Below, in pieces: positions 9,666-63,780 of a DNA stretch of 64,000 nucleotides (position 1 is the stretch's first letter; every line of letters starts with the position of its first letter). Location: NCBI GenBank assembly GCA_017506865.1, contig JAFCMP010000002.1, positions 620,001 through 684,000 of the forward strand. Direction: 5' to 3'. The notes beneath the pieces were generated by a model. It worked only from the letters and a program-made list of their open reading frames with translations, ran no database searches and was not told the DNA's origin. This DNA comes from Tribonema minus (lineage: Eukaryota > Sar > Xanthophyceae > Tribonematales > Tribonemataceae). The translations under genes and the position numbers were made by a program.

Positions 9666-11444
9666 ACGTGAGTGAGTAGATCAGGAATCATCGCATCTTG
9701 CGTGTTTTTGTGATATCATCATCTGCTTCGCAGGGGGGCCATTCATTGTTGCCCTTCTTTTGGTCTGTGCGCAAGCATGCACTGCATGCGATGCATGATT
9801 ATGAGCAGCCAAACCCTGATGGGACAGCTGCAAAGGCAGTTTTGCAGCATACTGCTCACTCTCGTTGATTGCTTGAGACCGTGGTCGCTGTGAAGACGTA
9901 CAAACATTAGTTGTACCTAAGTTATTCCTCATATGACAAGAAGGCCTCAATATTACTGACAGTGTGCCTCTGTCCACTGCACGGTAATTATACTGGAGCA
10001 ACGCTGCAGCTCATCTTCCTTCATGATGATAGACTGGCACTCAGATTTGCTGCTCCCGTGCGAAGCTTCAGGGTTTCACGCAGTGTTCGGAGGCGCCATG
10101 ACCTAGCAGCGCCATGACCTAGATGCATACATGTACGCTCTGCCACAAGGGAGTTGCACTTGTCAAATACCATCACCCTCAGTCACGCAGGCAAGTGCAA
10201 GCCCGATCAGCACATCCAAAGGTAATGCAGCAGAATCTAGTGAAGCCTGTCTGACAGCGCATTCAGCTGAAAAACGTGCGTGTACTTTTTATGTGTACTT
10301 GTATGATGGATGTACATGCAGCAACACAAACGTAGCCAGATGAAAAACGAAAGTACTCTACCAGAATTGGCATGCATCACAGCACATTGGCATCCAGCAG
10401 CAACCTAAAAGGTGCGGCAGAGACTCGCAGTGCAGAGTGTGTGATGGTACCTTTCATTTCAAAGCGCTTATACGCTTTCATATATAAACAAGGGGCAGTT
10501 CCCCAGAACTGCCCATTCACATAAATATAAACAGAGCCCCTGCCATGCAGGCGGTACAATGGCGACCACAAAGGTTGGGGGGATGACAGCAATGACATGA
10601 GCGACAGCATGGCTGGAAAAGCCAGCGCCAGCTACATGCCCCTTCTCAAAATTGCCTACCGCTACCGCTAGCCTAGCCACCACTTAGTGAATGTGCCCGG
10701 TGGAACGTGCCCCGTCACAGCCCTCGTGATCATCACGTGCACAAGGGATCCGCAGTGCGCAGGCACCAAATACCCCACCTACCCCGCCCCCCCGCCCCCC
10801 CCCCCCTTCCCGCGCCCCACATGTATTCCTGGAGTCTCTGGTGATTGGGCCTGCGAAGGCGGCACAAACAGCCCGCGATACCCCTACTAGTATTACATAT
10901 ACATACCCCTGAATGCATGCAGCACAGAGCTGTGGCGACTCACGCACTGAGCGGTGCTGCTGCAGATTCCTCAACCCACGTTCATAGGTATGGTACCCCT
11001 CTGTCCCTGCCCCGCCCCCCTCGCCCCCCTCCCCCGCCCCCCCCTTCCCCGTCCTATCATAACTCCTGGAGTCACGCGGCACAAAGCTGCGGCGGCTCAC
11101 AAAATGAGCGCTGCTGCTGCAGGTGCGCCGCCACCGCGACTGCCCCCCCGCCCCCTGCCCTCTGCTCCCACTGCCATCACCCGAAGAGTGCCGCTACCAT
11201 GGTGCCGCTGCGACCGCTCACACCCCCCCCCCCTTTCCCTGCCCCTGGTTTTCAAGCAGAGACTGCCATGGCTAGTGCACTGTCCACCCCTCCCCCTACC
11301 CCTGCTGCCATTACCCAGAGATCGCCGCTCCTGCGAAGTCGGCCTCACGATCCGCCCCCCGTGCCCCTGCTATCACCCAGAGATTAGAGATTGCCATGGC
11401 TAGTGCACCGTCCACCCCTACCCCTTCCCCTACCCCTGCGGCTA
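9666..11444. other. Gene-poor stretch with C-rich tracts
   Basis: I find no supported gene here. From about 10780 to 11250 the plus strand is dominated by long cytosine tracts, with two related blocks (about 10780-10890 and 11000-11100) sharing a TCCTGGAGTC word and a GGCACAAA word. These shade into copies of the 3' end of the alpha/beta hydrolase gene. Confidence 0.5.
11240..11444 (-). repeat. Tandem copies of the hydrolase 3' end beyond its stop codon
   Basis: Blocks at about 11250-11370 and 11380-11444 repeat the last 60-80 bases of the final coding exon, recognisable by GAGATCGCCGCT and GGCCTCACGATCC, downstream of the functional stop at 11445-11447. The copies include sequence on both sides of the stop. 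Confidence 0.6.
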
Positions 11445-14400
11445 TCACCCTGAGATCGCCGCTACGATGGTGGCCTGCGACGGCGGCCTCACGATCCACC
11501 CCCCGTGCCCCTCCCCCTTCAACTCGTGCACCACCAAGCGGCCCTGGCGCTCCGGCTGAGCAGCTGATGCAGCCAGGTACGGGACGATGGCGCTAGCGCG
11601 CGAGATCTCATCGATTTCGGAGATGAAGACGTCGGCGCTCATGGCGGTAGGTATGTCGGATGCGAAGAGCACCGACTCGTACCACCAGAAGTGCCTGCGG
11701 CAGGGGGGAAGAGGGGGCACAGGGGGGTGGCGGTTGGAGAGCGCTGCATGTGCCTCTTGATGATGCACTGCACTTCTTGACAACGGGGTGGTGTGGTGGG
11801 CTGACAGGGTCGGATGTGCATGCTTCTCCATACAGTCCTTCGATTGCGTCTCGCTGAGTGCGCAAGAAAGCTCATGATCAAAGCGGTAGGTACTGGAGGA
11901 CTTGTTTTCCCAACACAGCCGCGCTGTTCGGATATGCTTGATATTATAATGATAAATCCTGATACAATGGTGTGCTTGTACATGCGTTGCCATGAAAAAG
12001 CCTCTGATGGATGCTGTCACTAAAGCTTAAGATCCCTCAAGGCATTGGCTTCGAAGTGCTTCCGAGGAGAGACAACTTTGTTGAGCAGACATGAAAGCGA
12101 CAGCGCGCACCCAGGTGGCCTGATGATCAATAGGAACAGCAGCGTCCGTTGCAGATGTGCTACGTCTATACAGCATTGGCATTCACGTTCGCACGTCTGG
12201 TTCTCTTGTCTTCAGCCTTCTCCATTGCATGTGCCGGGCACCAGCTCCAACATCACATGCTTGTCATGAAGGGCTCAGAGAGTGTCACATGTTGAGCACT
12301 GCCTCAGCGCTCCTTAATAGCGGCATACTGGAAGAGACTGAGGGCGGACAGTACATGTACTGTGTAAGCATTAAGAAGCGTGCTGCAAGAGCTGCAAACG
12401 CATCTGTCACCGTTGCACGTGGAGATTATGGTATACTTCGAGTAACAATTATACACCACACTGTTGCATGTGGAGATTATGGTATACTTCGAAGTAACAA
12501 TTATACACCACACTCTCATCATACTGTGTATGCGCACTTCCACACGACCCTCAGCGGTCAAGGTGGCACTGCTCAGTGGGCAGGGACCAGCAGCAGCGAC
12601 CAGCAAACCCAAGCAGCAGCCAAGATTTCATCGCCAGCACGTAGCTTGCTCGACAAAACCTGCTATATCAGGGGCACAGCCATACTCTCTCTCCGCGTTG
12701 ATGCATGTACTAAGGTGGTGTAGCTGCCGGGGCAGCCATTCGACTGCGTCTGCCTCCCTGGCTTGTTGCGGGCACGTCGACGTGCCGGCTGGCCGTGTCC
12801 CTGCTTAGGGTTAGGGTTAGGGTTAGGGTTAGGGTTAGGGGTAGGGTTAGGGTTAGGGTTAGGGTTAGGGTTAAGGTCAGGCGTAGCTGTGAGGCTTAGC
12901 TGTGATCGGAGTCGCCTGTGGATGAAGTGGCTGACAACAGCTCCTGAGACGATTGATAGTGGATGATTGACGCTCAGCTTACTTAGGGATAGGGCGAGGA
13001 TCAGGGTTAGGGTTAGCTGCGGTCAGGCTCACCTGTGGAAGAAGTGGCTGATGAACAGCTCCTGGGACATGTGGTAGTGGATGATGTCCTGCATCGCGGT
13101 GCTGGGCTGCCTGCGCGCGGTTAGGGTTAAAGTTAGGGGTTGCATGAATGTGTGCAGTGCTCAGCAGTGCTGCAGTCAGTAGCAGCAGCGCAGTTGTTGC
13201 GCAAAAGAGGCGCAGTGTCGCTGCAACAGCTGCAGGTAGAGTGTGGGTGCAGTGGGAGAAAAAGAAGCCACACTCAGCATATACTCGGCAGGAACGCCGC
13301 TCAGTACATGCGGGAAGCTGTGTAGGCATGTCGGAATATGATACTCTCATGTAACTACAGAGTTGTGTAACTGCAAGGACGTGTAACTGCAGGGGCGTGA
13401 CTGGCTGAGCTGGCTGTTATTTGAGCAGGTTGCACGAGCAGGTTGCACCTTCTCGTACCATGCATAAGACTCGTCGCTTGGACTGCTCATTTTATAGCTG
13501 GCTCTGTCGAGCCAGCTCTATTCACGACCTCGACATTACACTTAATATCCACTTCTCCTTACACGGTCCTTCGGCCGCAGTCTCTCTTCCTCCCTCCTGC
13601 CTTGCTACCTGGCTTGGCATCTTGTCATGGAGCTCTAGCTGAGTCGTCATTTCCATCAGGCATGGTGTCAACAGGCTTGTTTGCTTGTCGCAGGAAGTGG
13701 GCACTAACAGTAGGCGATCGCGCAAGCGCTGAGTGATGGTGGAGATTTGAGTGATGGTAGGTGCTGTATCCTAGTGTTGGTAGGGCATATGAGAACTGTA
13801 GCCTTGAGTCCAATGCCTGCTGCCCAGGATGCCAGTCAAGCATTCCAGGATGCCACTCCAGAGGTTGTTTCAAAACGGCACCTGGCGAATGGCACTTGTT
13901 CAACATGTGTCACTGATTCTCACCTGTAGCAGAACTTCCTTGGCACGCCCACCTCTCATCAACGTACATTGATGTACAACCTCGCAGACTGTTCTACCCT
14001 ACAGCAGCATATACAAGTATCCACATGTCCTTCGGTTCTCAGCAACAAGTACCAACTATATTCATTTACTATAAGAATATCAGCATGTTCAAGTATATGA
14101 AATTACGCTTTCTCACCTGTAGCAGAAGTTCTCGAGAATGTCCACCTCCCAGAGCAGGAAGCACACAGGGTCGATGAGGACCACGCTGTGAACCAAATGC
14201 GGCTTGGCCTTCAAGAAGGCTCCCACCAGGCAGGTCCCCAGGGAATGCCCGATCCATCTGCACCAGCGCAAACATGCATAAGACGCTTTCAGTGCTGATG
14301 CAAAGATGTCACAATATTAATGAATTCAAGAAGGCACCCACCAGGCAGGTCCCAGGGAATGCACGATCCAGCTGCATCAGTGCAAACATGCAATGTACAC

Positions 14401-17400
14401 TGTTCTTCAGAAACTTCCACAATGATCATGACAACAGGGCAAGGCAAACGAACGCCATCTCGACCGACATTAGCGCATAACATGATCAAGTGTACGAAGT
14501 CCGTGGAAAATGTGATTATTGCATCAGCAAGATTACAGCGGCAGGCCACGACGCATTGTGAAGGTGAACGAGGCCAGCCTAACACGCTGCAACGTGCCCA
14601 AAACAGCGCTTCGACATCACATTTCTGTGAGCATCAGTACATCTGACATATACTCGTAAGCCTGACCTAAACCCCAACTATAATGCCAATGCTCACCCTG
14701 ACTTTGACGCCAATGCTTACCGGCAGCACAGAGGGGTGGCATCAATGACACCCCAACCCTACATACGTTCTAGCCCTGACCCTAACGCTACTGCTCACCG
14801 CGAAAGCCTGACGCCGTGGCGCCGTATCGCCGCCTCCGCCGTCGCGACAAACTCGCCAATGCTAACCCTACTTCTCAAGCCAATGCTTATCGGCGGCACA
14901 ATCAGATGGCGTCTACAGCACGTAAACAACACCTAAACCCCAACGCTAGTGCTCACCGCGAAGGCCCAAAGCCATGGCGCTGTATCGCCGCCTCCGCCAT
15001 AACTGCAACGGCAATGTTGACACTACCTCTCATGCTAATGCTCAAAGGCCGCACATTGGGGTGGCATAAATAACCCTAAACCCTAAACCCTAGCCCTAAC
15101 CCTACTGCTCACCGCGAAGGCCCAAAGCCGTGGCGCTGTATCGCCGCCTCCGCCGTCGCGACAAACTCGCTCACGCTCGGCACGTTCTCCTGCCCGAGCT
15201 TGAGCGACACGTGGGGCAGCTCGATGAGCATGATGCGGCGCTGGCGCGTCGAAGTTGAATCTGAAGTTGAAGTGACGCCCCGCACCAGCTTCAGCACGAA
15301 GAAGATGTACGTCGCGAGGCCCATGCCCACGCCGTGCACGAAGATCAGCGGCGGCAGCGGCGCGCTGCTGCTTTGCTGAGCACTGCTGCTGCTGTCGAGC
15401 GGAGCGCTGCTGTTGCGGTTGAAGTTGCCATTGAAGTTGGTGACGTGCTGCTGCGGCTGCTGCTTCGGGGCCTCGCGGACGTAGTACCAGATGTTGCCCA
15501 GGGAGTAGCGGCGGAAGCCTGCGCGAGTAAAAGTTCACAGCGGTTCACACACAGAGTACACACAATGTAAAGGGTGCACTCACAGAGCACCTGTACCAGA
15601 TGTTGCCCGGGTATACGGACGGAAGTTTGCGGTGCCATATAAAGTAACAGTTCACAGCGGTTCACACACAGAGTACACGCATTCTGATGAGTACATTAAC
15701 AGTGCACTGGTATCTCGACCACGCAGCAATGATTCCAATCGCGGTGTGCAGTGTCATAGCAAGCAGTGGCCCGCACGTGTCAACGCTCATCAGGACTTGT
15801 GGAGCGTTGCCACCAGCGCTTGGCCGCCCTCGGCGCTGGTTCACAGCTCACTTCATTTTGCAATGCTCTTCAAGCAAAGGACAGCGGTTTACTTGCCCAT
15901 GTCAAGTGCCTTGGTATTCTGTCTCAGCTGTTTGTATCATTTCGCGTGCCGTTGACGTATTTCTACCTGGAGCGCGTGAGGTACTTCAACTTGCAGTTTG
16001 CAGCAGTGCTCAGCGCACCAGCACGCACCTGCAGCCCGTCGCACCTGCAGCCCGTCGCTCCGCAGGTGAGTTCAGCTTGCAAAGATCATCAAGCAGAGCG
16101 ATGAGCATATGTACCTCAATTTTAACTTGAAATATACGAGATGGCAAGTGACGTGCGCGCTGGCGATGCACCAGCGCTCAGCACGTGCCCGCAGCGCGTA
16201 TCGCAATCCCCGCAGCCGTGTCCTAAGCATCTCTCGAAGTGTGGCATTCCAATCTGCAGTATGCATAGCAGCGAACTACTTCGATGCTTCACCATTAAGC
16301 TTGCATCACTGCACCAGCACGCACCCGCAGCGCGTATCGCGATCCCCGCAGCTGTGTCCATGATGAGCGTGCAGGCATAGTAGATGAACGGGCGGTGCTT
16401 GCTGGTGACTGGGTCCAGGTTGAGACGCCGCACTGTTACCCCTGTGCTCCCTTTGGGCAGTTTGACCCCCCTGGTGGCGACGCTCGTCTCAATCTCTTGC
16501 GTCAGCGCCTCGAGCTCATCGGCCGCGTCTGGTCCTTCCGCTTTGATCTGTGGTTTTAGCAGTGAACCGGGGGCAGAAGTGTTGGGGGTGTGTTCTGGGA
16601 AGAGGATTGCGTGTGGTGTATGCACTTCTATTGTTGAAGTGTTGCAGTGTGACGCACCTGACGAACTTGCCTCAAACCTATACGTATTAAGAAAACTCAT
16701 CATATTATCAATATGTAAACACTCACCCTAACTGGCATCTCAACCAATCATGACGCTGCATGCACTGCTTGCTGCATGTGTGCTTCACGCTTGAAAATGA
16801 ACAGAACAACATTGACTCGTGCACAGTTGAAGTTGGACTCCATCATGAACATCGCCATCCACTACTATGCGCAAGCTGAATATGTGATACTTCTATGCAC
16901 AACAGTACTGCACACTATTACGCATCTCTTCAAGCGTTCCCTCTCAGATGCTTCGCCGAAGAGGGTCGCCATTAAATAACTTCAAAGTGTGCAAGCAACC
17001 TGCATTGCCACAATTGTCCTGTCCAACCTCAACGAGTGACGCATCGATACGCAACGCTGAACTCCACAACAAGTGTCACATATATGTGATCAGGTGTGAA
17101 GGCACACTTGGGCCTTCAGCATTGATCCCAACAACAAGTCGTCTTTCAACACGGTAAAACTGACCAGAGCTCATGACAGCCCCCAAACTTCATGCATGGC
17201 ACCAAGATTGTTCAGCCCATGTTGAAGGGAAACTTCACAGCAGCAGCTTCAACAGCAAGCATGCAACTTCAACAGCAAGCAAATAAATGCCTCAAAATGA
17301 CTCTCCAACTCAAGGTCACAGCCCGTCTGTTGCCAAAGAAGGCCCAGGTCAGCCACGACAACGTTTTGTACACCCTAGGTAGGAACTTCACAGAGCCTCA

Positions 17401-19337: not shown

Positions 19338-22054
19338 GACGAGCGAGTGTATCATTTGTGTTCACGTCTCATGTCCGGAAACTGCTGTTTATCGCATGGT
19401 GCTGTTTACTCAAGAAACTTGTCTCGAAGCTTGCAGCGGACGCATCTTGATGCAGACCAGTCCCAATGCGCATGGAATATTGAGCACAAAAACAATTGGC
19501 TTTGACTGTGGAGGTTCTTCTGATATGCTGCCAGAGCGGCTATCTTTTCCGGTCGCTGCACACTGCATCATCCCTGCTGCGCACATGTGTGCCAGAGTGT
19601 GCTGTGCAAGGCGTTGTTCTCAAGAGTGTTGAGCGATGAGTGCATCATTGCGTACACACGCGTAGCGCATGTGCTGGGCCGTGATGCAGTGCCCATTGCT
19701 AAGCTCCCTTAGGTTCAGCGCAGACTATATTGCTGCACTACTTACTGGATGATGAACGACAAGATTACAACAAGACACAGGACACAAGCCTCTCTGCGTC
19801 CAGCCTTCTTGGGCCTTTAGGAGAGCAAGCTGCAGTGCAGAGGGTGCTCCGCATCCATCTGCACAAAGGTGGTACAAACAACCAAATGATGAGAACACAG
19901 AACCACATTCTGCGCAATGCCGCAATGGCCCTGTGTGTGTGATCATTACACTTGTTGCACCTTAGAGTCTGCTGAAGCGTTAGTGTCCATGTAGGTCTAC
20001 TGGCAGACTATGCAGTCCAAGTGGCTGCCACGTTGGTAGACGTTCAATAGATTGAAATACTGGCACCCAAACACTTACCAAGCGCCGCAATTGCATACAG
20101 AGGAGATTTCATCAGGGCATTCATTACTGCATTGCACATGGCATCGCGCAGCATTGCATGTGACAGTGACAATGACTCCAAGTTAACAGCATGTGTGCGC
20201 ACAACCATGGCGAGGGGAAATCATAGTATGCCTGTTGATTGAACAAAGCTGAAGTCCTGCTGCTGACACCAAAGCATGTGGTGATGCCGTGGTGCATTCA
20301 GCGGCAGACCGCTGTGGGGAACTCACTGTTCAGAGTCTTTAGAGCACTTGTATGTGAACCTACATCTACAATTACGTAGTCTAACACCTCCACGATCAGC
20401 TTGATGCTGCCAACAGAATTCATTTGGTGGTATGCTGCGTGACGCTACCCACTACGTACTCAAAATGGCGCACTGCCAGCTGCACGTCTGTTCCAGGGCA
20501 ATCGCAGTAGCGCACAGTGTCTCTGTCCAATCACGCCTCGCCTAGCACCGACGGCACAGTCGATTCCCCCAAAAAGCTCCCCTCCCCCTTTGCACATACC
20601 CTTACGCTCTGTACAGAGGACACAGCAACTAGCATTACCACTTGTGCTGTACACAGCAACGCCTGCAGGAGCTTGAATAGCGCTCCACAGTGGCAGCAGC
20701 GACAGGTCGTGTGTGGCAGCATGCAGCTGAGAATGTGACGCTGCTCAGAGCTCCAGTGGCAGCTATGGGGCGGTGTCACCAACATCATTAACAGTACTGC
20801 AGCAGAAGCCGTGATGACTTGTCAACGCTCAGCTGATGGTGCGATGATGCTCAGCTCCTGCAAGAGCTGCGGCAGTGCTCAGCAAAGCCACTGCTGCAGC
20901 AACACTCAGCAGCAGCAGCAGCAGCAGCGGCAGGCTGGCGTCCCCCTCAGGTCCAGGCGGAGGCAGCACTGCTCAGCTCCTGGTGTCGCGCTTGCGTTCG
21001 GCGACGTAGGCGCTCTGCGGTATGCTGCGCAGGCGAACCTGCGCGCCAATGAGTTGGCAGGAGACTCAGTGGCAATCACATTAGGGCAGATGTGTGATTT
21101 CAATCTGCTCATTGGAAGAGAACGATGAGCTCGATGAAGGCCGCACAGTTCTACTGCATGCGTACATCATACCGTGCAGAGGGTGTGCAGAAGGTCATCG
21201 GGTCCCTCAGGCACTGCACGGCCTGCTGAATGCACCATTGTTCAGTGGCCCTCGCTGTGTTGGGGTTAAGGAATTGGGATAGGGTTACACTTTCACATTT
21301 CAGGTTTGGGGGCATCCTAAAATGTCGAAACACCCAAGTTTTGTGTGCTCACTCGGCCTGTCTGCAAGTTACTGGGTTCAGGTCTCACCAAGAGTGGCTC
21401 AGAGGCCGTCACAGAGGTGGTGACTACAGCAGCCCCAAGTCTCAGTAGTCCTAGATGCAGGGTCCACACGCAAGCTGTTGCTCGGTGTAGGGCATGAGGG
21501 AAGGGGAATGAGCGTTTCGCTTCGCAGTATACTTGAAGTACCTCAGTGAGAAATAATGAAAGTACACAGCACTCGAGCTCTTGTACTTGAAAGAAAATCA
21601 GAGCTCTGCACGCCAGAACCTTCGAGCAGCTGTGCTCGGTACGAGGTGGCACTGGTCACCTAACCAGCAGCTTTTGCCCTCCATAACAGTGCCTCAAGTG
21701 CTCAGTCTGCCCTCATTACAATAAACCACCTCAAGGCAACCCCCATCTGAGACATGCTAGCAACTCTTCTCCCCTCGCCAACCTAGTTCGTGCCCTTCAT
21801 GATGGTGAGGCACGACAGCCTCCAGCGTCTGGCAAATAGCAGATGTATGCTAGCAGCAGTGCTCAGTGTCAGGTGGCAGCGCTCACCTGGCTGGCCTCAT
21901 TCTTTCCCCCCACAACGGTGCGGCAGGACAGCCTCCAGCGCCTAGTTCTTCCCCTACATGATGGTGGGGCACAAAGGCTCCAGCGGCTTGGACAGAGAGC
22001 AAGCTGAAGTTTACTGGCAGCAGTGCTCAGTGTCAGGGAGGTGGCAGCGCTCAC
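19338..22054. other. No gene assigned; should hold the 3' end of the ferredoxin gene
   Basis: The minus-strand PDZ-ferredoxin gene must end in this stretch, because its last recognised exon ends at a splice donor. I could not find the terminal exon. A plus-strand frame at 19730-19942 and a glutamine-rich one near 20811-21128 have no recognised motif. Copies of ferredoxin exon 5 occupy 21780-22054. Confidence 0.4.
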
Positions 22055-22400
22055 CTGGCCGGCCTCATTCTTCCCCCCCACAACGGTCCGGCAAGACAGT
22101 CTCCAGCGCCGAGGAAGGTTCCTCATGACCATGTTCTCGAGACCGTCGGGCGGTGAGAGGAGCTCTGCACCCTCTTGCACCTCCACAAAGCACGTTCCGC
22201 CTAAGGTTGGCACATGTAAGATTGCGGGCAAGGGTCAGGATTGCATGATGAAGCGAGGGCGCGCAGAGTTGTGTGGATGCGTGTAATCAATGCTGGAATG
22301 TAACTTCGTCGGGTGGTGAGAGGAGCTCCGCACCTTCTTGCACTTCCACAAAGCACGTTCCGCCTGGGTTTCAGCACGATGCAAGCAAGGTCAGGGCCAG
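21780..22400 (-). repeat. Exon-edge copies flanking ferredoxin exon 5
   Basis: Copies of the exon end and donor lie at about 21790-21835, 21885-21945 and 21945-22000 (CAGCCTCCAGCG words, GCTCACCTGGC). A copy of the acceptor and exon start lies at about 22305-22375 (GAGAGGAGCTC, CACAAAGCACGTTCCGCCT). The functional exon is 22055-22200. Confidence 0.8.
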
Positions 22401-25400
22401 GACTATGGTATGGACCTTGAGGGTGAGGATCGTGTAGTGAAGCAAGGGTGCAGACTTGTGTAGTCAAGTAGAATTATGCTTGAAATGTCATCCTGTGCAT
22501 GGCCATTGCGAGCACATCTACTCCTCAGAGCAAGCACACTTTGGTGAAACCCTCGCTGATACAATTTCTAAGCGTACGGGGCTCTGCTCCACCCCAGGGC
22601 CTCGAGAGCGCTGACGTCACAGCAAACCTCCAACCCTATTCCGAGATTTGATCAAGCGACTCAGACTCACAGATCCCCTCGCCAAAGTTATCCGTCGCGT
22701 ACGGCTGGTTGAACCTTGACCCTTCTTCCAACCCTAAACTCAAAGCAATCTTCAACCTTCAGAGACTGGAACTGTAGCTTGAAACACTCACAGCACTTTG
22801 CACATTGCTACATGCTGCAAACAGATTCAGACTCTGAGTCAGACTCACAGATCCCCTCGCCGCCGCAGTTCCCCGTGGCGTACGGCTGGTCGAACCGCTG
22901 CGTCTTGGCATCATACACAGGCCTCTAAAACAATCACAGCACTTTGTACTTCGCTACTGCAAGGTTACGTTTAAACAGATTCAACTTCTGAACAGACTCA
23001 GACTCACAGATCCCCTCGCCGCCGCAGTTCCCCGTTGCGTACGGCTGGTCGAAGCGCCGCGTCTTGGCATCGTACACAGGCCTCTAAAACAATCACAGGA
23101 CTTTATACTTTGCTACAGCACGGCTAGACCCGAACTCAAGTCTTAAACAGATTCAGACCCTGAGTCAGACTCACAGATCCCCTCGCCGCCGCAGTTCCCC
23201 GTCGCGTACGGCTGGTCGAACCGCCGCGTCTTGGCATCGTACACGGGTATGTCCCTGCGGATCATCTCGCTGCGCAAATTGCTGCCTGCGAGCATCTGCA
23301 CGCCCTGGCCGCCCCACTCGACCGCCGTGCCGTCTTCGGCGTACGCGGTGGGAGTCTCAAAGGTGACCTCGAGGGTCTTGCGCTGGACGAGGCGCTTCAG
23401 GACGAGGGTGATCTCGGCGAGGTCGGCGTATTTGCCGAGCGCTGCCACGGTGGTGTCGTAGTCCTGTGAATGATGTGGGCAAGGATGGTGAAAACTTTGC
23501 TTAGACATTTAGTGCTTCAGCACGAGGGTGATCTCGGCGAGGTCGGCGTATTTGCCGAGCGCTGCCACGGTGGCGGCGTAGTCCTGCGTTGGTGCCACGC
23601 GCGGTGTAGAGAGGAGATATCTGAGTAGCAGCAACTTCAAAGGTGACCCTGAGAGTCTTGCGCTGAACGAGGCACTTCAGGACCAGCGTTATCTCGGAGA
23701 GATTGGCGTATTTGCCGAGCGCTGCCACAGTGGCATCGTTGTCTTGCATTGGCGCAGAACTATGGGCGGGAGCAGAACTTGGTAGCACAAGAAATCTACG
23801 GGAACAAGTCCAATTGCCGTGTCTGCTCTGGATGAGGCATTGTAGACTCGGCGAGGTCCGCACACTTGCTGAGCGCTGCCATGGTGGCGTTGTAGTCCCA
23901 CAACATGTTACTGGATCGAGGTGAAATTGGCATTCACAAATGGCCAAATGTGACATGGGGAGGGAAGGCTGCATGCGCATCAAGTCAAGGCATGTATCTT
24001 ACATGATGTATGTACGTAGTTGCATACCTGCCCCTCCACTCGTGTCATGTCCCGTGCAGCCTCATTGCCGACATAAGTCAGCGTGTCGCCGGTATTAATG
24101 AGGCCCGACTCCGCCGCGTTGCCGCCGACATCGCCGATCAGCACCAGACCCCTGCAAAGCAGGAGAGACATGGAGACAAAGTCAAACCATGTGCATGTAT
24201 GATGTGCGTGCTTTGCACATGCAGTCAATCAGCACCAGGCCTCTTACCGCACTGGGGACGTGAAGGCGGTGTTTAACACAATGAGCCACTCAATCTAGTA
24301 CCCATTATTGCTTTTTAAGCGCTTTGCATGATTTAGCCAATGCAGTCAACCAGCACCAGGCCCAGCGCAGTGCAGGAGACATATGACTGTTGCGATCAGC
24401 TAGATACCTGATATATTTTCGCTAAGTTTCAGCACAAAATCAGAAGTTCTTTGTTTGATCACATTCATTATCATGTGCAAATGTCATGACTTTCAGGCTT
24501 ATGCTATGGTGCTGCAGAGAAGGGAGAGTCTGCCTGCAGCAATTGGCAGTGCACCTGCCGATATCAACAACATGATACTTGCATCATGCTTGATGTGCGG
24601 ATCCTCACCTCGTGTACCGCCCAGGCAGTGCTTCACTGATGGGGGATGTAACTGAAATCGCAGGGCATCATAAGGCTTCCCTGATACAGTGTAGTCTTGC
24701 AAATCCGCGCCATCATCAACAGCAGCAACGTCGTTGCGCTCACAAAAAAAGCGCATTTGGCATCGCAGGAGAGGTTCCCTTGTACTTGAGCCGAAATTAT
24801 TTGTGTTGACCGCTGTTACTAACTTCATGTGAATTCAAGTTTGATGTCTTGCCTGCCGTCGCCGCTGCGCGCCACCTCAATCAGCTCCAGCCCCAACCCC
24901 GGCTTGCGCTGCACCTGCGCCTTCACTGCAGCCGAAGCGTGGTGGGCGGCAGCCAAATGATGCAGCAATGAGTGTCGGAAAGTGCTGTGCATGAGCTGGA
25001 GTTGGTGTGCTGCCTGTGCACGTCGAGCTCAACCATGTGATGATAAAGATGTTCAACTCCAAGCGCTTTCAAGTTTTTGACACAACGCTGGCTACAAGCG
25101 GTTGGGAACCTACGCATGGCAGGCCTACGCATCCATGTTGCTGCTACTGCATGTTGCATGCTGTGAAAGTCAATGGATCTTGGTGCTGAAAAAACAAATG
25201 TTGGGTAAAGTGTGACACAGTCCGGCGTAGCGTTGACCTTCCTCGCAGGTCAGCTTATGATGCAGTGGGAAATTACATGCAGTGGTGTGGCAGATGCATG
25301 GATGTAGCGGATGCCTCAATATGCCGTTGATACGAATGCCCTACCTGTGAAGCTTGCACGGATGTATCATTAGCCTTAGAACAAACAGCTCAAGATTTCT

Positions 25401-27879: not shown

Positions 27880-27950
27880 AGCTCCGTGCTTCGGGAAGGC
27901 GCCCCCCCCGCTTCATCTTCATCTGAGTGACGCTCCGTGCCTGCGGCACA
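27845..27950 (+). repeat. Tandem duplication across the methyltransferase stop codon
   Basis: Two units of about 53 bases repeat GGCGCCCCC, CTTCATCTTCATCTGAGTGA and GCTCCGTGC. The first contains the stop codon in use; the second lies in the 3' UTR. Confidence 0.85.
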
Positions 27951-39484: not shown

Positions 39485-39552
39485 GTGAGACTTGCGACTC
39501 TAGCTCGAGATAGTTTCTAAAGACATTGTTAACATTCAAAAAAAAAATTGAT

Positions 39553-39608
39553 TCGGCCGGGTTAGATTTGAACCAACGTAGGCATTGCCAGCGGATTTAC
39601 AATCCGCC
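39553..39608 (-). pseudogene. trnY: 3' fragment of a plastid-type tRNA-Tyr(GUA)
   Basis: On the minus strand the anticodon stem GCGGA/TCCGC encloses the loop TTGTAAA with anticodon GTA. A class II variable arm (TGGCAATGCCTAC) and a T-arm GTTGG/TTCAAAT/CTAAC follow, ending in CCCGGCCGA. The match to chloroplast trnY-GUA is close. The acceptor 5' strand and D-arm are missing, so it is a fragment. It lies between two exon-edge copies in an intron of the SNF2-like gene and is probably a short piece of plastid DNA captured in the nucleus. Confidence 0.72.
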
Positions 39609-39892
39609 CGGCACGACTGCGGTGCCTGAATGGATTCGTGGGGGTGCCCCCCATGGCGCAGGTGAGACTGGCGACTCCAACTCTGAGTCACATTGCGAGT
39701 ATTTGTCGGGCGCATCTGCTGTGGTGGTGTGGATTTGTGGGGGTAACCCCTCAAGGTGCGCATGGCGTGAGTGGGACTTGTGACTCTGACTCTGAGTTAT
39801 GTTGCGAGTGCATACGCGTCGGCGCGGCTGCTGTGTCCATGGTTCGTGAGGGTCCCGCCTAAGTGCCCATCAAAGAGGTGAGACTTGCGACT
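39595..39892 (+). repeat. Three copies of SNF2-like exon end and donor
   Basis: Units at about 39610-39680, 39716-39785 and 39822-39900 repeat GGCACG.CTGCGGTGCCTG, TTCGTGGGGGT and GCGCAGGTGAGACTTGCGAC of the exon ending at 39484. Confidence 0.85.
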
Positions 39893-55200: not shown

Positions 55201-58200
55201 AACTCAAACTAAAAGTTGGAGGCACAGGAGCGGCATGATGTCTTGCTGTCATTCGTGTGCCGCCACTGCCTCGCATTGTCCAACTTTGCAACATTCCGAG
55301 CACCAACAGTCATCATATCCAGTTGAGATTGTGGCAATGGTGAGAAATGCGTACCTACCTATGAATTACATACATACCCTGGCGTCGTCGCCGACCTGCT
55401 GCAGGCCGGTGGAGGTGGAAAACGACACTGTCCATAAAATAAAATAAATTGCACCAGCAGCAGCAGCAACAAAATGTCCATTAAAAAAAACTTCTGCACC
55501 AGCAGCAGCAGCAACAAAAGCGACTGTGCAACATCATACGTTCTTCCCTTTAAAGCAGCCATTACCCTGGCTTCAGGCCACACAACTTGAACTGCTGTCA
55601 ATGACATCAGGAAGCAGTGGTCTACTTCCTTTTTTGAAGTACATGTATACCTACCGCGTTGTCACCCACACCTGTTGCTGCGTTGCAGGCCCGTGGAGGT
55701 GGAAATCGACCACCACTAAGTTTTCTGTTCTGTTTCAACTTAAGAGCAGTTGGCCTTTGGTGAGAAATGCGCACCTATGAATAAATGCATACCGCGGTCT
55801 CGTCGCCCGCCTGCTGCAGGCCTGTGGAGGTGAAAAATGACTACGCTGTTTAGGCATTGGAGGTCGAAAAGAAACACCGATCAGTTTTCTTCGCTGTTTC
55901 AACTTGCATGAATTTGGCACTTTGGTAAGAATTGCAGTTTCTAAGAATCTTACACCTACCCTTATGTCGTCACCCACCCGCTGCTGCATTGCAGGCCTGT
56001 GGAGGTGGAAAATGACTACGCTGTGCAGCTAACACTGGCGGTCCTGCCAGGCGTGACAGTGCAGCCCTTCCACGTGCATCCAGAGTGAGTACAACATACT
56101 TGAAGTTTATACTGGGAAGTTGTAGTTGACGTACGTACATGCAGGGGGGAGGGCATTTGAAAGGCATAGCACTGGTGCGCACACGCTCATCTTTGTCTGC
56201 CGCATGTGCATCCAGAGTGAGTCAAAACATATACCTGCTTGGAGGTACACATTTTTCCTGGGTATATAAAAGTTCTTTAAGTGTATGCATGTGCAGGATA
56301 TGACAGCGCAGCGCTCCCATGTGCATCCAGAGTGAGTGTCATGTGCTTCAACTTGAAGTGTATTATTTGTACACGGTATGGTGGCGATGCAGCCAGTCAA
56401 CGCGCTTCCAGAGCGAGCCTGATAAACTTTCAAGCATATATCTCCACTGAACAAGGCATGTACCTCTGTGTCATGCGTGACAGCGGCAGCCCTTCCACGT
56501 GCAGTCACAATGAGTCCAACGTATACCCCCATAGGAGTATGTGTATGGTGGACAGATGGACAAGGACGTAGTGTGTGTGGGGGGGGGGAGGGGGCATGTG
56601 GCAATGGAGCTTCGATGTGATCGTCAAAGCGTATTGAGACACTCCATTCAAGTTGTCACAAGTTACATGTCGTAGTAAGCTCAACGCCCACTTCCGGGCT
56701 TTTCCCGCACTCAGCGAGCATTAACTACCGTAAAGTACCGGGTAAACAGCCCCCTAGCGGTAAACAGCCCCTGCGCTGTAAAAGACCCGCGGGTCTTATA
56801 GCACCAGGGGGTCACTGCCAGCTTGAGCCCCCCCTACATGGTAAAAGACCCGGGGGTTGTTTGCCACGTGATGCTTTGTCATTAGCTATGTGCATGTCAC
56901 TACAGTTATGCTCAAAGTACCATGAATGACGTTTGTTGACGGGTGTGTATGTTTCATCACTGGGCCTCAGCACATGCTGTTTTAAAATGCAGGTGTCATG
57001 TCATACTAGTTGAAACGGTTTGTGGGGCAATATAGGCAAAACAACCAAACCCTTCTTCAAGTTGTTGAAGTTTGTTTTCGAGAGAAAAGCGAAGGGAGAC
57101 CACGCTACGATGGACCCGACCTCACGATTCTGCTGTAGGCTGTAACTGAGCTGCAGCCTTTGCTTGACCTGTCAGGCATGCGCCCGAGAGGGCCATCCAT
57201 TGTGTCATCACGAAAATAATGCCGGCGCCTTACTGTGAGCAACTACAGTACGTAGCGCGCCGGTCCTCACGACAGGCACAGGCGTGTCAAATCCCTTGAA
57301 ATTCAAAGCGCACTGCTTGCTATGCTGCGAGTATTTTCTGCGATGATGTAATCGATTAACAGCCCGTGCATGGCAAACTGCCCGGGTGTTTTGCCAGGCG
57401 CAGCTTGCCAGCGCGCATCTGTGCCAGCTTAAGCCCCCCCCCTCTTGGTAAACGCCCCCTGCGCTGTAAACGACCCCTGGGTCTATGGCACCAGAGCCCT
57501 CTGCCAGCCAAGACCCAGGGGTCGTTTACCCGGTACTTTACGGTACAAGTACGTATAGACTACATCAAGTACAAAGACGCAGGGGGGGGGGGGCACATGG
57601 AGGCGGACGTAGGGGAGGACCCCGAGATGCCATTTGGCGGCGGCGGCATTTGAGTGGTTGTCGTTGCGACACTTTCAGACTGTCATACGACATGTAGATT
57701 CCTTACAGCTAGATGCCAATCATCTGGGCTTTTTCGCGCCCTGAGCGAGAATTAATAAAAAGTACAAAGACGCTCCTCCCACCAATCGCCTTGAAAGACG
57801 CTCTGACGTGCAAAACTGGTAACTGCAACAAAGCAGCGTCCTCGGTTCAAAGACGGGGCAGAGCAGGATCGCTGTCGACCCTTCCATTAATCGCTCACCC
57901 ATGTCCATTCCTCGAGCTGCACAAGCAGCCAACTTGAAGTGCGTGAAACTTCACCTTCAGCTGCAGAATGCCCCGTAGGTCGGCCACGTGTAGATACAGC
58001 CCTTGCCGAGCCTGCCCGAGCTGAGCGCTGTGGACCTCGTCGTCATTATCGCTCAATATCATTTGCTTGCAACTTCAACTGCAGGAACGTCCCCGCTCCG
58101 GAGGTCGGCCACGTGCAGATACAGCCCTCTCCAAGCCTGCCCGAGCTGAGCGCTGTGGATCCCGTCTTCCTGCTGTACCCTGCGCCATCGTTCATGTCGA

Positions 58201-61200
58201 GTCTCGACGACTTTCTCGCGGGTATCGACACGGCTCATCCTGGGGGGTTGAAGTTTGGCGCGCTCGCGTCGACGGTCAGCAGCCTCAGCAAGGCGCACCT
58301 GTTCGCATGGGGCGATGATGGCGTCAGCGGCATCACCGCTCAGGTGAGCTGAGCTGTGCAGTGTGCACTGCAAACTTCACTTATGAAGTTCACTCACTTC
58401 ATCAATGAAGTTCGCCAAAAGTGGTGTGTTCGTGGCGTGATGGGGGCGTCAGCGGCATCACTGCTCAGGTGAGCTGAGCCGTACCATGTGCACTGTGCCA
58501 ATCTTCATTGGTGAAATTCATACAAATAATTGCGTGGGGCGACGCGAGCAGCGGCATCTGGTAAACTGATGAGTAAGGTGCATCAACTTCAAGTGCTGCT
58601 TGCGGGCAAAAGACTTGCTCTGATCATAATTTGGTTTGCAAAACCCGCGGGTTTGCGCCTTGCGATGCCACTAACCTCACCATACAAGGTGCAAAAACAG
58701 GCACGTCGTACCCCTTGCAACACTGCTCAGCAACGCTTCTCGGCAGGTAACTGACACAAGTGAACTGCCTCAATCTTCGATGGCTTGCAACACGTAGAAG
58801 TAGCTTGCTCTGGTTGTAGTATGATCATAAACTTCCGAGCCCTGCACCTTTGTTGCCATTACCATTGCCACACAAGGTGCACAACAGGCGTAACCCTTGC
58901 AGCATGCGCCACTCTATACGGTATGTACCCAGGACTTTGCGGAGGGGACAGAGGTGCAAAACAGGCATTTCGTAACCCTTTCATGTATGTGCCAACTGAT
59001 GGTATGTATGTATAAATGTTCCACTCTGCTATACGGTATGTACCCCAGGATTTTGCGGAAGGGACAGAGGACCAGGACCTCCCCTGGCTGTTCAACTCGG
59101 GGGTGGTGGGCGTGGCGCTGAGCGGTGACATCCGCGCACGCTCTTACATCACACAGGGGTACGTGTGTATATGGTGACAATAGCATGTATGACTTGGGAA
59201 TGCCTTCACTGTAATGCTGAAGTATGATATGGTTACTGACATCACGCGCACTCGTACATCACACAGGGGTACGTATGCATATAATGCCATGGTGACAAAA
59301 CCATGTGAAGATGGCTTGGGAATGCTGGAGTGCAATGATCACTGACATCCGCGCACGCTCTTACATTACACAAGAGTATGCATGTATGAGAAAAGTCTGT
59401 TAACACCACCACATGTGGCGTGTGGCTTGATGATGACATGTGAAGTAGAATTCTGTTGAACCTGCGAAACGATACTTCATGACATCCGCGCACGCTCTTA
59501 CATCACGCAGGGGTACGTATGTATGTGTGAGTCCTTGGTGATGTTGCCGTGAAATGCTGAAGTATGATGATGGGTGACATTACGCGCGCGCTCTTACATC
59601 ACACAGGGGTACGAATGTATGTACGTGTATCAGTCCATGGTGATATTGCCGTGAAGTGCTGAAGTATGATGACTCCTGACGTCCGCGCGCGCTCCTACAC
59701 GCAGGGTATGTATGGATGGATGTGTAAGAGTCCATGGTGATACCACCGTGTAACATGACTTGGGAATGCCGTCAACGTAACGCTGAAGTATGGTGATCAC
59801 TGACATGCGCGCGCTCACCTGCATAGGGCTAGGTTCAGGATTACAGGGGTACTACTGTATGAATGTTCTCGATTGATGACATACCATTGTGCTTGAGTTG
59901 ATTATGTCATGAATGTTTTGGTCCTTGAAGTGACACCATGGCGATCGACTCAATCACATCAAGAATGTTGTTGGTCAGCCTGGAAGTACGATTTTAGACA
60001 TCAGCGAGCGCTTCTGCTTTACGCAAGGGTATACATGCATGCATGAGACTCCGTGGCGACATTCAGTCGATACCATATCGCAAGACTTCAGTGGCGTTAT
60101 GAAAGGAAGTACCTCATGACTCATGCGCGCGATCTTACACCACACAGACGTCTGAACTTGAATTGTAGGGTTAGTTAGGGTTAGGGTTTGCACATCACGC
60201 AAGGGTACGCTTGTGTGAGATTCTGTGGTTGTGCACTGCACCTGTCGACCGTACACTGAAGTGCTCCATGTGACGCTCGTGTCTTAAGTTCAATGCTTAC
60301 TTCACCACTTACCTCAACACAATCACCCCCGTATCAACCCTCCTCGGTGTTTCCTGGGGTGTGCCCCTCCGTATCGCGCGCACGAGACTACAGCTTCTGT
60401 TGAACATGACGCGAAGTGACGCTCCTGTTCTGATCAGCTTCAACCCTACCCTATTTGTTCCTCCAGGGCACGGCCGCTTGGCCCCGCATACATCTGCGAC
60501 CGCGTGGACAAGAGCACCATCTTCAGCATACGCATCGCGCCGCCCGCCAACCCAGACGGTACGCGTGCCTACGCACACAGTTTTTGAGGCGAATCTGGCA
60601 GCAATGCGGAACCACACTATATGTAGGCCTTTGTTCGGCATACGCATAGCGCCGCCCACCAACCCAGACGGTACGCAAGCCTACTCGCAGAGTTTTTAGG
60701 CTAATCTGCTAGACCACTGGCAACATGCAGTGCGTGCATCTGCACAAAGTTTGTGGTTCTAATCTGGCAGCAACGCGGAACTGCACTTTAGGCCTTTCTT
60801 CAGCACACGCATCGCGCCGCCCGCCAACTTAAATGGTACGCATACAGGATGTGGCACACTGTATCTACGCCCAAGTCTCTTCGTAGGCTGATGTGCCCGT
60901 TATCACTGGCAGCATGTAGAACCGCACTCTAGGCCTGTGTTCAACGTACACATTGCGCCGCCCGCCAATTCAGATGGTACACGAACAGTATGCGACGTAC
61001 TGTACCTACGCACAGTCTCTTCAAAGTCTCTTGATAGGTCGACGTGCCTGAGAGGCGCATCCTAGGCCCATGTTCAGCGTACGCATCGCGCTGCGCGCCA
61101 ACACAGATGCGCGCGCGTAGTGCAGTGTTGAAGTTCACAACGCACCTCTGTCCACCGCTCGCAGTGCGTAAGATCACGGCGAGAGAGCTGTTTGACAACA

Positions 61201-63780
61201 GTAAACTCAGGGAGGGCTGGTGTTTTGTAGGTCGCAGAGATTGACAGTAAAGAGCATAAGGAGCACTGTTTTTGGCATACGCATCGCGCCGCCTGCCGAC
61301 CGAGACGGTACACATATCTCTGTAATAATTTACTTCAGAGGTGATATTTAGCCTGATGAACATGCATGAACCACACTTGAGGCCCGAGTGCCGAGCTGTA
61401 CTTTACTTGCCTTCAGCAGCAGCATCACCGAGGGCTGCGGACCATACATCAAGCGATTGCAAAGAGCGGAAAAACTTGGCGACATGCAGCAAGCGTGCGT
61501 CACTGACTGAAGATCGCCGATCTACTGTGTCAGTGCACATGTCATTTCGCCCGGCCTTGGGGAAATTTCCCTTGTTGCGCTGAACTTCAACTTGCTGGGC
61601 TGAGCGCATGCCGTTCATTTAAAAGCTGCTAAGTTGAGCACTGTGCCCATTGTGCTGAGCGCTGCATGCCCTGTCTGTGTGCGCGCAGGCGTGCCGGGGC
61701 CCGCTATGCCGCCGCTCGCCGCCATTCGCCAGCTGCAGCAGGCCTCGTTCAACCCCCCTGTTCTTAGCACTGTGCCCATTGTGCTGAGCGCTGCTTGCCC
61801 ATTTTCTATATGCATGCAGGTGTGCCAGGGCCCGCGATGCCACCACTGGCCGCCATCCGCCAGCTGCAGCAGGCCGCGCCGGAGGCGGAGGCGGCGGCGA
61901 TACAGCGCTCGTTGCTCGTCGGCACTGAGGCCAATGCGCTGCCAAATTCGCCGCTCCAGGTACGTTGAGCCTCGCAAACAGCCAGTGGTTAGGCTAGGAG
62001 GAAGCGTCCTTCAGACCATGTTGAGCACTGAGTCGGCACCGAGGCACACGCGCTGCCAAATTTGCCGCTTCAGGTGCAGTCAGGAGTAGGAGTCCATGGA
62101 CAATACGGAGCACTGAAGCCGGCCTTTGGTGAGGGCGTGGGTACTGGGCCCTCATGCCAATGCTGAGCACTGATGCCAAATGCGCCGCTCGAGGTACAAT
62201 CAGGCCCTGTGAACAGCCAGTGGTAGTGCCAGGGGTATGCATGTATGTGTCGTGAATGCCTACATATGCCGTGCTTGCGCGTTGGGTACAGCTGCGAATA
62301 AGCGGTTGTGGCTATGAGCCTGTGGCAGTGCTCACGCGCCACGGCGTGTCATCGCAGTGCCGCCACAACGCACACGAGTCACTGCAAAGAGTGCACGCCT
62401 ATGCTTCAGTGCGCGCACGCACGCGCAGCGGTACCTGCATGCTGTCTCAACTGGCGGTACACGCATGCACACAGGGTACGTATGCACTTGAGAATAACCG
62501 ATACCTATATACATACCTACGCCTTCGCGTCAACGCAGGTGAAAGAGCGCGTGGAGGGATTCACCGACAGGCTCATGGTGCGCACCATCGCACGCGGCGG
62601 CATGAAGGCAAGTGCACATCAATAGCGGTTCCCGTACTTCAACGTCTCGTTGAATCAGGTACATCTTCACTAGAGCTCTAGCTTCAACACCTCAAGCTAC
62701 AACATCTTGATGCTTCAACTCTTCTGTCAAGGTACGTCAAACACTCTGGTCTTGCAAAGTTCTGACAGTTACGAAAACCTTGTGGTTCTGTGTTCTCAGC
62801 TTCATTGCCGTGGAAGCTGCTTTTCAAACCTTTGATACTGTACCTTAGACTTTGACATGCAAGCTCTGCCATGCATGCCTTGTGCAGTTTATGCCCATAC
62901 CTTGCTCATGTATATGTATACAATATGCCCAGCGCCTGTCTGGGCACAACAGCTTGGAATTAGGCTCAGGACATAGCTATATGCTTGAGGAATACATCCC
63001 AAGGATGCGCATGTACATATCCGATACCCACCTCTTGCTCATGTAGAGCACCTACCGTCTGTCCGGCGACAACAGGATGGGAGCAATGCATTGTGCAGGC
63101 CATACAAACCTCTCCCCCCACCCGTTGCTTATCACATGTGTCTCAACACCACACAATGGCAGCGTCTTAGTGTTAGGGTTAGCTGCTTGGGCTCGACCTC
63201 CATTTCCTATACCTACCCTTTGCTCATACCTGCCCCACGCTGATGTAGTGACAGCACGAGAGCATCATCAGCCTCTTGGTGTTGCTGTACATACCCCTTG
63301 TAACCAACGTCCCTCCCGTGCCTTTGTATAACTTTAAGTAGCACCCACCACCTGTCTGCCACCAACAGAACGGAAGCATTTCTCTTGTACTTCATGTACT
63401 TTGAAAATTAAACTTCGAAGTAACATAACACCCCAGCAACCGCACCCGGCAATCATAGGACGGGAGTATTAAGCCGCCCAGGCCCGATCTCACTCTTGGA
63501 TTGACCTCACTCTCGGGCCCGATGATCGTACTTTTAGATTAACATGACACCCATTTATTAACAGGATGGAAGTATTACGCTGCCTGGGCCGGAACTTATC
63601 TTGTATAGTATATACATATATTATAGTATAACATGACACTTGTTGCCTGTTTAACATGAACAGGATGGGAGCATTACATTGCCCGGGCCTGATCTTCGGA
63701 AAGGACAGCGCCTCCAGTTCTTCATCAGGGACGGTCCGGCAGCGGCCGCTGACTTGGACTCGACTCTGGCCGCATACAAA
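52221..63780 (+). CDS. FIST-domain protein with plastid presequence (continues past window)
   Basis: Exons 52221-52499, 53625-53815, 55995-56084, 58085-58343, 59049-59158, 60467-60558, 61820-61959, 62539-62607 and 63664-63780 all join in phase (449 codons), and the last ends at a GTGAGT donor, so the gene runs on. FIST domains are ligand-binding sensory modules known mainly from bacterial signalling proteins and also from plants and algae. The N-terminus is a signal peptide MQYLLVATAALHLACVANA followed by FVS, the ASAFAP-type plastid signal. FIST_N signs are WSSAVSTATDLPTAIEQ, PDLAILHVSSIYGGP, ALVGGGASGVVG, FLLYPAPSFMSSLDDFLAGI and SGVVGVALSGDIRARSYITQ. FIST_C signs are PGPAMPPLAAIRQLQQ and RLQFFIRDGPAAAADLDSTL. 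Mean intron length exceeds 1 kb because of edge copies and inserted elements. Intron 8 has a GC donor (62608). Confidence 0.85.
53930..54660 (+). repeat. Four copies of FIST exon 2 end and donor
   Basis: Units ending near 53987, 54150, 54495 and 54640 repeat GGGGCGAGCGGGGTAGTGGG, TATGCGCAAGG and the donor of the exon ending at 53815. The last two have lost the AG/GT context. Confidence 0.9.
55375..55860 (+). repeat. Three copies of FIST exon 3 start and acceptor
   Basis: Units near 55400, 55680 and 55815 repeat CTGCAGGCCTGTGGAGGTG and TCGTCGCCC ahead of the functional acceptor at 55994. A duplicated CAGCAGCAGCAGCAACAAAA block lies at 55455-55520. Confidence 0.88.
56190..56530 (+). repeat. 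Copies of FIST exon 3 end and donor
   Basis: Units near 56200, 56300, 56390 and 56480 repeat CACGTGCATCCAGAGTGAGT, in decreasing quality, after the functional donor at 56085. Confidence 0.85.
56728..57543. mobile_element. Non-autonomous inverted-repeat transposon (MITE-like), TA flanks
   Basis: The ends are inverted repeats: CCGTAAAGTACCGGGTAAAC at the left and its reverse complement at the right, extending imperfectly into GCCCC/GGGGT. Both ends are flanked by TA (56726-56727 and 57544-57545), as for Tc1/mariner-type insertions. The 816-base body holds further inner copies of GTAAA.GCCCC and GACCC.GGGGTC words and no transposase. It lies in FIST intron 3. Confidence 0.7.
57567..57773 (+). 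mobile_element. Retroposon copy with 14-bp target duplication
   Basis: The body 57581-57759 is flanked by AAGTACAAAGACGC at 57567-57580 and 57760-57773. It starts with a G-run, has a short frame ending GGCGGCGGCATTTGA, then a 3' tail ending AATTAATAAA. It matches 1598-1794 in inverted orientation and 38-125. Variable 5' truncation, long target duplications and an A-rich 3' end point to target-primed retroposition. Confidence 0.78.
57950..58045 (+). repeat. Copy of FIST exon 4 start and acceptor
   Basis: About 90 bases (CTGCAGAATGCCCCG, GGTCGGCCACGTG, AGCCTGCCCGAGCTGAGCGC) repeat 58078-58165, upstream of the functional acceptor at 58084. Confidence 0.92.
58430..58965 (+). repeat. Edge copies in FIST intron 4
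   Basis: Exon 4 end plus donor is copied at 58437-58490 (GGCGTCAGCGGCATCACTGC) and, more poorly, at 58536-58560. The exon 5 start plus acceptor is copied at 58915-58955 (TATGTACCCAGGACTTTGCG). Confidence 0.85.
59225..60215 (+). repeat. About nine copies of FIST exon 5 end and donor
   Basis: Units near 59240, 59345, 59480, 59577, 59678, 59795, 59998, 60115 and 60188 repeat GACATCCGCGCACGCTCTTA and CATCACACAGGGGTACG from 59128-59165. Spacers of about 60-130 bases include GCTGAAGTATGATG and CCATGGTGAT. This is the largest edge-copy array in the window. Confidence 0.92.
60630..61330 (+). repeat. Five copies of FIST exon 6 end and donor
   Basis: Units near 60637, 60797, 60938, 61071 and 61275 repeat TTCAGCATACGCATCGCGCC and GCCAACCCAGACGGTACGC from 60524-60563, plus spacer words (AATCTGGCAGCAACGCGGAA). 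Confidence 0.92.
61675..62230 (+). repeat. Edge copies flanking FIST exon 7
   Basis: Acceptor plus exon start is copied at 61682-61755 (GGGCCCGCTATGCCGCC, CGCCAGCTGCAGCAGGCC). Exon end plus donor is copied at about 62030-62080 and 62160-62200 (CGCTGCCAAATT.GCCGCT.CAGGT). The functional exon is 61820-61959. Confidence 0.9.
62880..63610 (+). repeat. Copies of FIST exon 9 start and acceptor
   Basis: Units near 62930, 63050, 63355, 63445 and 63555 repeat CACCNNNTGTCTGCCAACAGGATGG-type sequence with progressively more of the exon (the last two retain GGACGGGAGTATTA and GCCCAGGCCCGATCT). The functional acceptor is at 63663. Confidence 0.82.

Follow-up and report, generated by a model that had tools for sequence, protein, structure and literature searches.

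Introns of the xanthophycean Tribonema minus carry diverged tandem copies of the segments that span their own splice junctions. We analysed a stretch of 64,000 nucleotides, here called the window (positions 620001-684000 of contig 2; the genome comprises 158 Mb in 554 contigs), in which a preliminary description had reported such copies in six genes, encoding a hydrolase, a ferredoxin, a methyltransferase, an SNF2-like protein, a sulfotransferase-like protein and a FIST protein. The junction-edge copies are a real genome-wide feature that reaches past these six genes. Array starts that cross an exon boundary exceed what uniform duplication and the detection advantage of a conserved exon yield in simulation. 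For the cause, we give about an even chance to intron lengthening through recurrent, boundary-straddling tandem duplication, with inert copies whose exon parts are probably refreshed from the exon.

The window test set was drawn from the FIST, ferredoxin, hydrolase and SNF2-like genes, with junctions defined by hand; these genes were chosen because the preliminary description had named them. At each edge, 40 nt of exon and 15 nt of intron were compared with the edge's own intron, and a match had to beat the best of 100 shuffles. The far ends of two SNF2-like introns were set by rough anchors, and acceptor edges there are unreliable. The sulfotransferase junction (the 25th) lies outside this test, as its far exon was not found. 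The FIST gene joins six exons in frame, homologues P0001-P0008 continue across the junctions, and the Pfam FIST match is above cut-off, as are those of the alpha/beta hydrolase (Abhydrolase_1), Fer2 and the DOT1-type methyltransferase. SNF2 and sulfotransferase reach Pfam matches below cut-off only. A family search of the genome for FIST gave no match, probably on account of its short exons, and scanning the window for RNA families gave no hit. The chaperonin set was chosen regardless of repeats. Searching the genome with the PF00118 family produced 56 matches at exon level, distributed over about ten genes, and all ten places were taken. Introns were called from profile order, frame and splice motifs. 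The 42 neighbouring exon pairs gave 31 called and 11 uncalled introns; one call was discarded because of a large mismatch in length, so that the set holds 30 introns in nine genes, and a strict edge test excluded calls scoring below 4 and used 29. Nearly all joined chaperonin peptides read on smoothly across the called introns; one junction (L029, profile 322-363 to 360-487) appears mis-called by some codons. Extra partial matches in three of the about ten genes are read as exon-edge copies. The sampled set comprises 15 sampled stretches and two stretches flanking the window, with exons and junctions predicted ab initio. Figures for unit length and exon overlap also take in 25 ab initio window junctions.

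The window, compared with itself, is rich in direct local repeats and poor in inverted repeats. Direct local repeats have a mean coverage of 11.9% in a set of 21 stretches of 10 kb (15 genome-sampled, 6 from the window), compared with 0.3% for inverted repeats and 0.0% in Markov shuffles. Repeats lie at the places named in the preliminary description, and for 17 of the 24 hand-defined window edges the edge's own intron contains a copy exceeding the shuffles (11/13 donors, 6/11 acceptors). The donor bias suggested by these counts is gone in the strict chaperonin test, where copies occur at 9/29 donors and 8/29 acceptors. In the same test exon-centre 55-mers were copied in 0/15 cases. A later scan found 103 copies altogether, at 16/60 chaperonin edges, 18/87 sampled edges and 14/26 window edges. 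The pattern thus extends well beyond the six genes, which are richer in copies than average. A junction-spanning copy is present at 44/173 edges. Chaperonin introns with edge copies are longer than those without (medians of 815 nt for n=13 and 466 nt for n=17, p=0.006). Between two chaperonin paralogues, L026 (contig C511) and L036 (contig C516), the first shared intron is 357 bp long in one and lacks an array, and in the other has an acceptor-edge array and a length of 2382 bp. In a pair of HSP70 genes, the compared intron has no array; it aligns at about 78%, and about 50 nt of flanking exon differs at one site (two 600-bp stretches compared). The closely similar HSP70 genes form an inverted pair at C522:954544-957873 (-) and 981609-984842 (+). 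HSP70 first-exon matches with identical scores at C179:221650 and C90:846742 are perhaps allelic or recent duplicates.

Copies sit intronward of their own edge, donor copies downstream and acceptor copies upstream, as first described. Identity is about 67-100%, and copies within one array differ mutually, which does not fit an assembly error. No alignment connects both exon edges in any of 43 introns, although very old cases would be beyond detection. Each array copies one edge and not a complete exon, in line with the uncopied exon centres, and exon duplication does not describe it. The nearest-copy period has a median of 157 bp (10th-90th percentile 117-183, full range 79-302), close to the unit size first given. 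The exon portion of a unit has a median of 58 nt (range 25-135) and departs from a uniform distribution (Kolmogorov-Smirnov p=0.00015, 37/38 arrays); the exon end is mostly common to the copies of one array, as seen under a 60-nt limit. Local repeats in general share this scale, with 74 of 123 periods within 110-190 bp. Wear tends to rise with distance, as had been claimed: the rank correlation of divergence with distance is positive in 13 of 16 arrays with at least three copies (mean rho 0.59), and among arrays with at least two copies, divergence of the most distant copy is higher in 19 and lower in 8 (p=0.052). Anchoring at splice junctions holds, but not at junctions only, since tandem copies also cross the stop codons of two genes, the hydrolase and the methyltransferase.

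Conserved exon sequence keeps boundary-crossing arrays visible for longer, and uniform duplication was therefore simulated as a control, with conserved exon, deletions, indels and near-identical detection (random sequence, simple settings, 120 or 150 genes each). Observed array starts divide into 14 crossing and 3 internal in the chaperonin set, and 16 and 10 in the sampled stretches. Across six detection settings in the chaperonin and sampled sets, the density of starts at exon edges is 5.4-12.4 times that in the intron interior after correction for intron length, the chaperonin ratio resting on just 3-5 internal arrays and the sampled ratio being lowered wherever an unrecognised exon makes an array count as internal. 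The uniform null rises from 2.1 (copy frequency 0.18) through 2.7 (0.30) to 3.7 (0.48, under a higher duplication rate), all with no intron-length correction; with that correction it gives 1.1-1.3 with more indels and 1.9 in a further run. Simulated junction duplication made five times commoner gives 6.0-6.6. A toy model of homology-driven growth, with ratios of 1.2-1.5, did not reproduce the junction bias. Random placement of repeat clusters leads the same way. In the chaperonin set 15/21 clusters share 12 nt or more with an exon, where 7.2 are expected (p=0.0002), and 19/21 lie over or within 20 nt of a junction, where 9.4 are expected; the same cluster comparison in window genes gives 15/16 against 4.7. 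The observed ratio is above the uniform simulation, and the objection that copies start at random positions relative to splice sites therefore fails. Anchoring at the junction is upheld to this extent; the preference may stem from the mutation process, from survival of copies or from exon-templated repair of them.

The exon-derived part of a copy outlasts the intron-derived part. Divergence between real edge and copy is 0.108 in the exon part and 0.170 in the intron part, with the exon lower at 19/22 edges; the later scan gives 0.106 and 0.166. By 10-nt bin it is 0.09-0.11 in exon and 0.11-0.20 in intron. At codon positions 1, 2 and 3 it is 0.097, 0.072 and 0.162, roughly the 1:1:2 pattern expected of inert copies beside an exon changing at silent sites. 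In 67 of 91 pairs, two copies differ from each other in the intron part at least as much as the more diverged of them differs from the real edge, which would follow from each copy having been made from the exon-bearing unit. The splice dinucleotides are intact in 42/52 donor copies and 37/44 acceptor copies (81-84%), but retention per site (0.907 donor, 0.920 acceptor) is barely above that of neighbouring exon letters (0.898, 0.902). This speaks against decoys and corrects the preliminary description, in which the splice dinucleotides were among the parts best kept. Protein continuity at the called junctions requires no extra exon or intron. Judged from sequence, the copies look inert, with no sign of use as splice sites.

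In the favoured explanation, introns would lengthen through recurrent tandem duplication of segments of about 120-185 bp lying across the border of coding and non-coding sequence, in most cases a splice junction. The outermost original splice site would stay in use, leaving the protein unchanged and the copies removed as intron, as the intact reading frames suggest. The order of divergence suggests that new copies arise beside the exon, in register, while older copies would move inward and decay. The conserved exon most likely would serve as repair or conversion template for the exon part of the copies. Several observations weigh against parts of this explanation. Copy-specific changes at codon positions 1, 2 and 3 are 0.073, 0.058 and 0.113 (p=0.0006), and the third-position excess persists outside CpG (0.099 vs 0.059, p=0.006) and when the count is restricted to G or C letters (0.085 vs 0.064). 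It weakens the codon pattern as proof of neutral copies, and could reflect weak coding constraint or mis-ordered copy ages. Plain duplication in particular is called into question by the close pairs, of which 12 have at least 88% identity among 44 edges with a nearest pair: for 11 of the 12, similarity ends no more than 21 nt from the splice site, compared with 5/29, 3/42 and 9/40 in simulations. Among 20 nearest pairs that have an unaligned gap of at least 25 nt, just 2 have a gap resembling the stretch beyond the copy (z over 3). Intron parts show a copy-specific change of 0.139 and exon parts 0.080, where simulations give nearly equal values for the two, and exon overlap exceeds 90 nt in 5/38 arrays vs about half of those simulated. 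The special standing of the boundary is also qualified. An intron-only edge test is not significant (6/15 vs 5.3 expected, 5/11 vs 3.6), a weak test with the exon-bearing unit removed; chaperonin edges are only about twofold above intron centres (17/58 vs 4/27); and exon-interior copies alone occur at 5/173 edges. Repeats also occur outside recognised genes: 25/64 repeat pairs overlap a strong coding segment (random spans 19.6%), and 23/64 lie more than 1 kb from a recognised coding segment (43% of random spans). Refreshing from the exon would explain the early stop of similarity and the lower copy-specific change of exon parts. Weak selection, too, would let exon parts outlast intron parts; we prefer refreshing, given that splice sites show no special retention of their own.

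Four other explanations were weighed. Uniform tandem duplication of non-coding DNA, in which the conserved exon side is merely recognisable for longer, accounts for copies lying in tandem and on the side of their own edge, and for a codon pattern near 1:1:2; its simulated exon/intron divergence ratio of 0.69 is near the observed 0.63-0.64, and purely intronic and far-from-coding arrays do occur. At comparable copy frequency, however, it falls short of the observed start density, and in simulation it makes long exon overlaps too common and lets intron homology continue past the splice site. We regard it as already disfavoured and unlikely. Mutation aimed at the junction could involve, for instance, template switching or staggered breaks on the scale of nucleosomes or in the course of transcription and splicing. 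It would explain the narrow unit length, the peaked exon overlap and the common scale of local duplications, and donors and acceptors behave alike in chaperonin genes. The crossed stop codons mean that splicing is not required, and such mutation leaves the better lasting of exon parts unexplained; as an account of the arrays it too seems rather doubtful. A bolder combination of this with refreshing, which we put forward only as a tentative possibility, is that a junction-directed, nucleosome-scale process repeatedly copies about 58 nt of exon with its splice site while the exon refreshes the copies by conversion, driving intron growth genome-wide. Conversion would perhaps be from cDNA, because the preserved tract ends at the splice site.

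Selection might keep the copies as exon ends or as splice sites that serve as decoys, alternatives or backups; decoy and alternative sites had been suggested in the preliminary description. The idea draws on the exon parts outlasting intron parts even from copy to copy and on the weak third-position excess. Against it, GT or AG is lost from some copies and kept near the rate of exon letters, and 10/50 copies have exon-part deletions that do not total a multiple of three (7/50 have deletions that do). We consider it improbable. The repeats are located within introns, as mobile introner-like elements or captured sequences would be, but the studied arrays copy their own exon edge, and each of two whole arrays searched against the genome matches only its own place, in a search that skips very common words. 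For these two arrays the earlier exclusion of introners is borne out, and such elements can hardly be the source of the arrays.

Table 1. Edge arrays and reference exons in the window (positions within the 64,000 nucleotides).
Feature	Position	Strand	Evidence and remarks
FIST gene, reference exons 1-3	58194-58343, 59049-59158, 60467-60558	+	In-frame joining, homologues, Pfam; whole gene 58194..63780
FIST gene, reference exons 4-6	61820-61959, 62539-62607 (GC donor), 63664-63780	+	In-frame joining, homologues, Pfam
FIST exon 1 donor edge and its copy	58300..58520	+	Self-comparison 80%; edge score 70 vs shuffle maximum 24
FIST exon 2 real acceptor edge and upstream copy	58914..59070	+	Self-comparison 93%; edge test
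FIST exon 2 donor edge and row of copies	59124..59816	+	Self-comparison; spacings about 96-137 bp; 4 copies above threshold
FIST exon 3 donor edge and five copies	60512..61314	+	Self-comparison, edge test; no similar place elsewhere in genome
FIST exon 4 real acceptor edge and upstream copy	61637..61878	+	Self-comparison 86%; edge test
FIST exon 4 donor edge and two copies	61918..62210	+	Self-comparison; edge test
FIST exon 6 acceptor edge, upstream copies	63070..63700	+	2 above threshold (about 63070, 63556); 63368 and 63458 by eye
Hydrolase donor edge and two copies	14676..15170	-	Self-comparison, edge test; Pfam Abhydrolase_1
Hydrolase acceptor edge and one copy	14210..14392	-	Self-comparison 91%; edge test
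Hydrolase second donor edge and one weak copy	13917..14125	-	Edge score 40 vs shuffle maximum 23
Hydrolase upstream acceptor edge and one copy	15484..15707	-	Self-comparison 75%; by eye, outside edge-test list
Hydrolase third donor edge and one copy	12859..13085	-	Self-comparison; edge test
Hydrolase stop codon crossed by tandem copy, no splice junction	11296..11512	-	Self-comparison; score 62 vs shuffle maximum 27
Ferredoxin donor edge and three copies	22658..23247	-	Self-comparison, edge test; Pfam Fer2
Ferredoxin acceptor edge and one copy	22144..22365	-	Self-comparison 93%; edge test
Ferredoxin gene, acceptor edge and three copies	23357..23898	-	Self-comparison; edge test
Ferredoxin gene, further donor-edge repeat	21782..22113	-	Self-comparison 83%; junction by eye
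Methyltransferase acceptor edge and one copy	27038..27259	+	Self-comparison 92%; junction by eye; Pfam DOT1
Methyltransferase stop codon crossed by tandem copy, no splice junction	27845..27940	+	Score 61 vs shuffle maximum 24
SNF2-like donor edge (GC donor) and three copies	36211..36590	+	Self-comparison; edge test
SNF2-like donor edge and copies	37579..38091	+	Self-comparison; edge test; two above threshold
SNF2-like array with almost no exon, abutting next exon	38175..38628	+	Self-comparison; far acceptor approximate
SNF2-like donor edge and three copies	39401..39892	+	Self-comparison; edge test
Sulfotransferase-like donor edge and about four copies	48125..48671	-	Self-comparison; anchors by eye; family match below cut-off

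Several other features were seen in the window and the genome. In our judgement, gene content and GC-rich codon use have a green-algal look. Two junctions, at window positions 62608 and 36268, have GC instead of GT at the intron start. Short interstitial TTAGGG arrays occur at window 12805-12881, 37142-37172, 43971-43996, 46430-46460 and other places, and also genome-wide; a TTAGGG 24-mer has 3071 forward and 3991 reverse matches in the genome (overlapping matches counted), and contig 2 begins with a telomere-like array. Nearly identical sequence (99-100%) at window 34-125, 1594-1777 and 57583-57766, one copy inverted, is dispersed and probably a mobile element. Direct repeats of 90% identity at 1803-2186 and 7695-8040 flank a long reading frame at 5306-7861 (-), which is retroelement integrase-like, a name given from reading only. 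An open frame at 3053-4609 (+) resembles, again by reading only, a DNA cytosine methyltransferase; its coding part contains a tandem repeat of 60 bp that keeps the frame.

Boundary-crossing tandem duplication is already known from a potato gene, and the junction-anchored rows in many genes are a new variant of it. In the passages of PMC4974935 consulted here, a tandem duplication across an intron-exon boundary made a new intron in the potato RdRp gene, whose first intron also has an 83-bp tandem duplication. The duplicated segment spans the boundary there as it does here. That case, however, as far as those passages go, concerns one gene and a new intron, whereas the present arrays occur in many genes on donor and acceptor sides, in rows of copies, with no new intron evident. 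The same passages describe the creation of introns by tandem duplication of AGGT-bearing exon segments (Rogers 1989; Hellsten 2011). Tandem duplication in those accounts likewise supplies extra splice sites and leaves the protein unchanged, but an intron made from a duplicated exon would link both edges, and no such link was found in the 43 introns. Introners, according to the part of PMC9860276 covered, affect introns genome-wide in some eukaryotes; as described there they are elements copied into many genes, unlike the two searched arrays, which are private to their places. The covered passages of a review (PMC3488318) hold no account of such arrays, and a literature search, with subscription journals mostly outside its reach, found no description of junction-anchored arrays.

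Tandem exon duplication places copies of exon sequence in introns; here the copies are of edges alone and include a single splice site apiece. Intron lengthening is commonly ascribed to transposons and slow insertion. The copies at the chaperonin and sampled edges, sets unselected for repeats, form a datable record of intron growth in this genome. The arrays also offer a natural test of how splicing proceeds where the true site has near-identical competitors next to it. If the exon does refresh the copies, they would be a case of exon-to-intron gene conversion.
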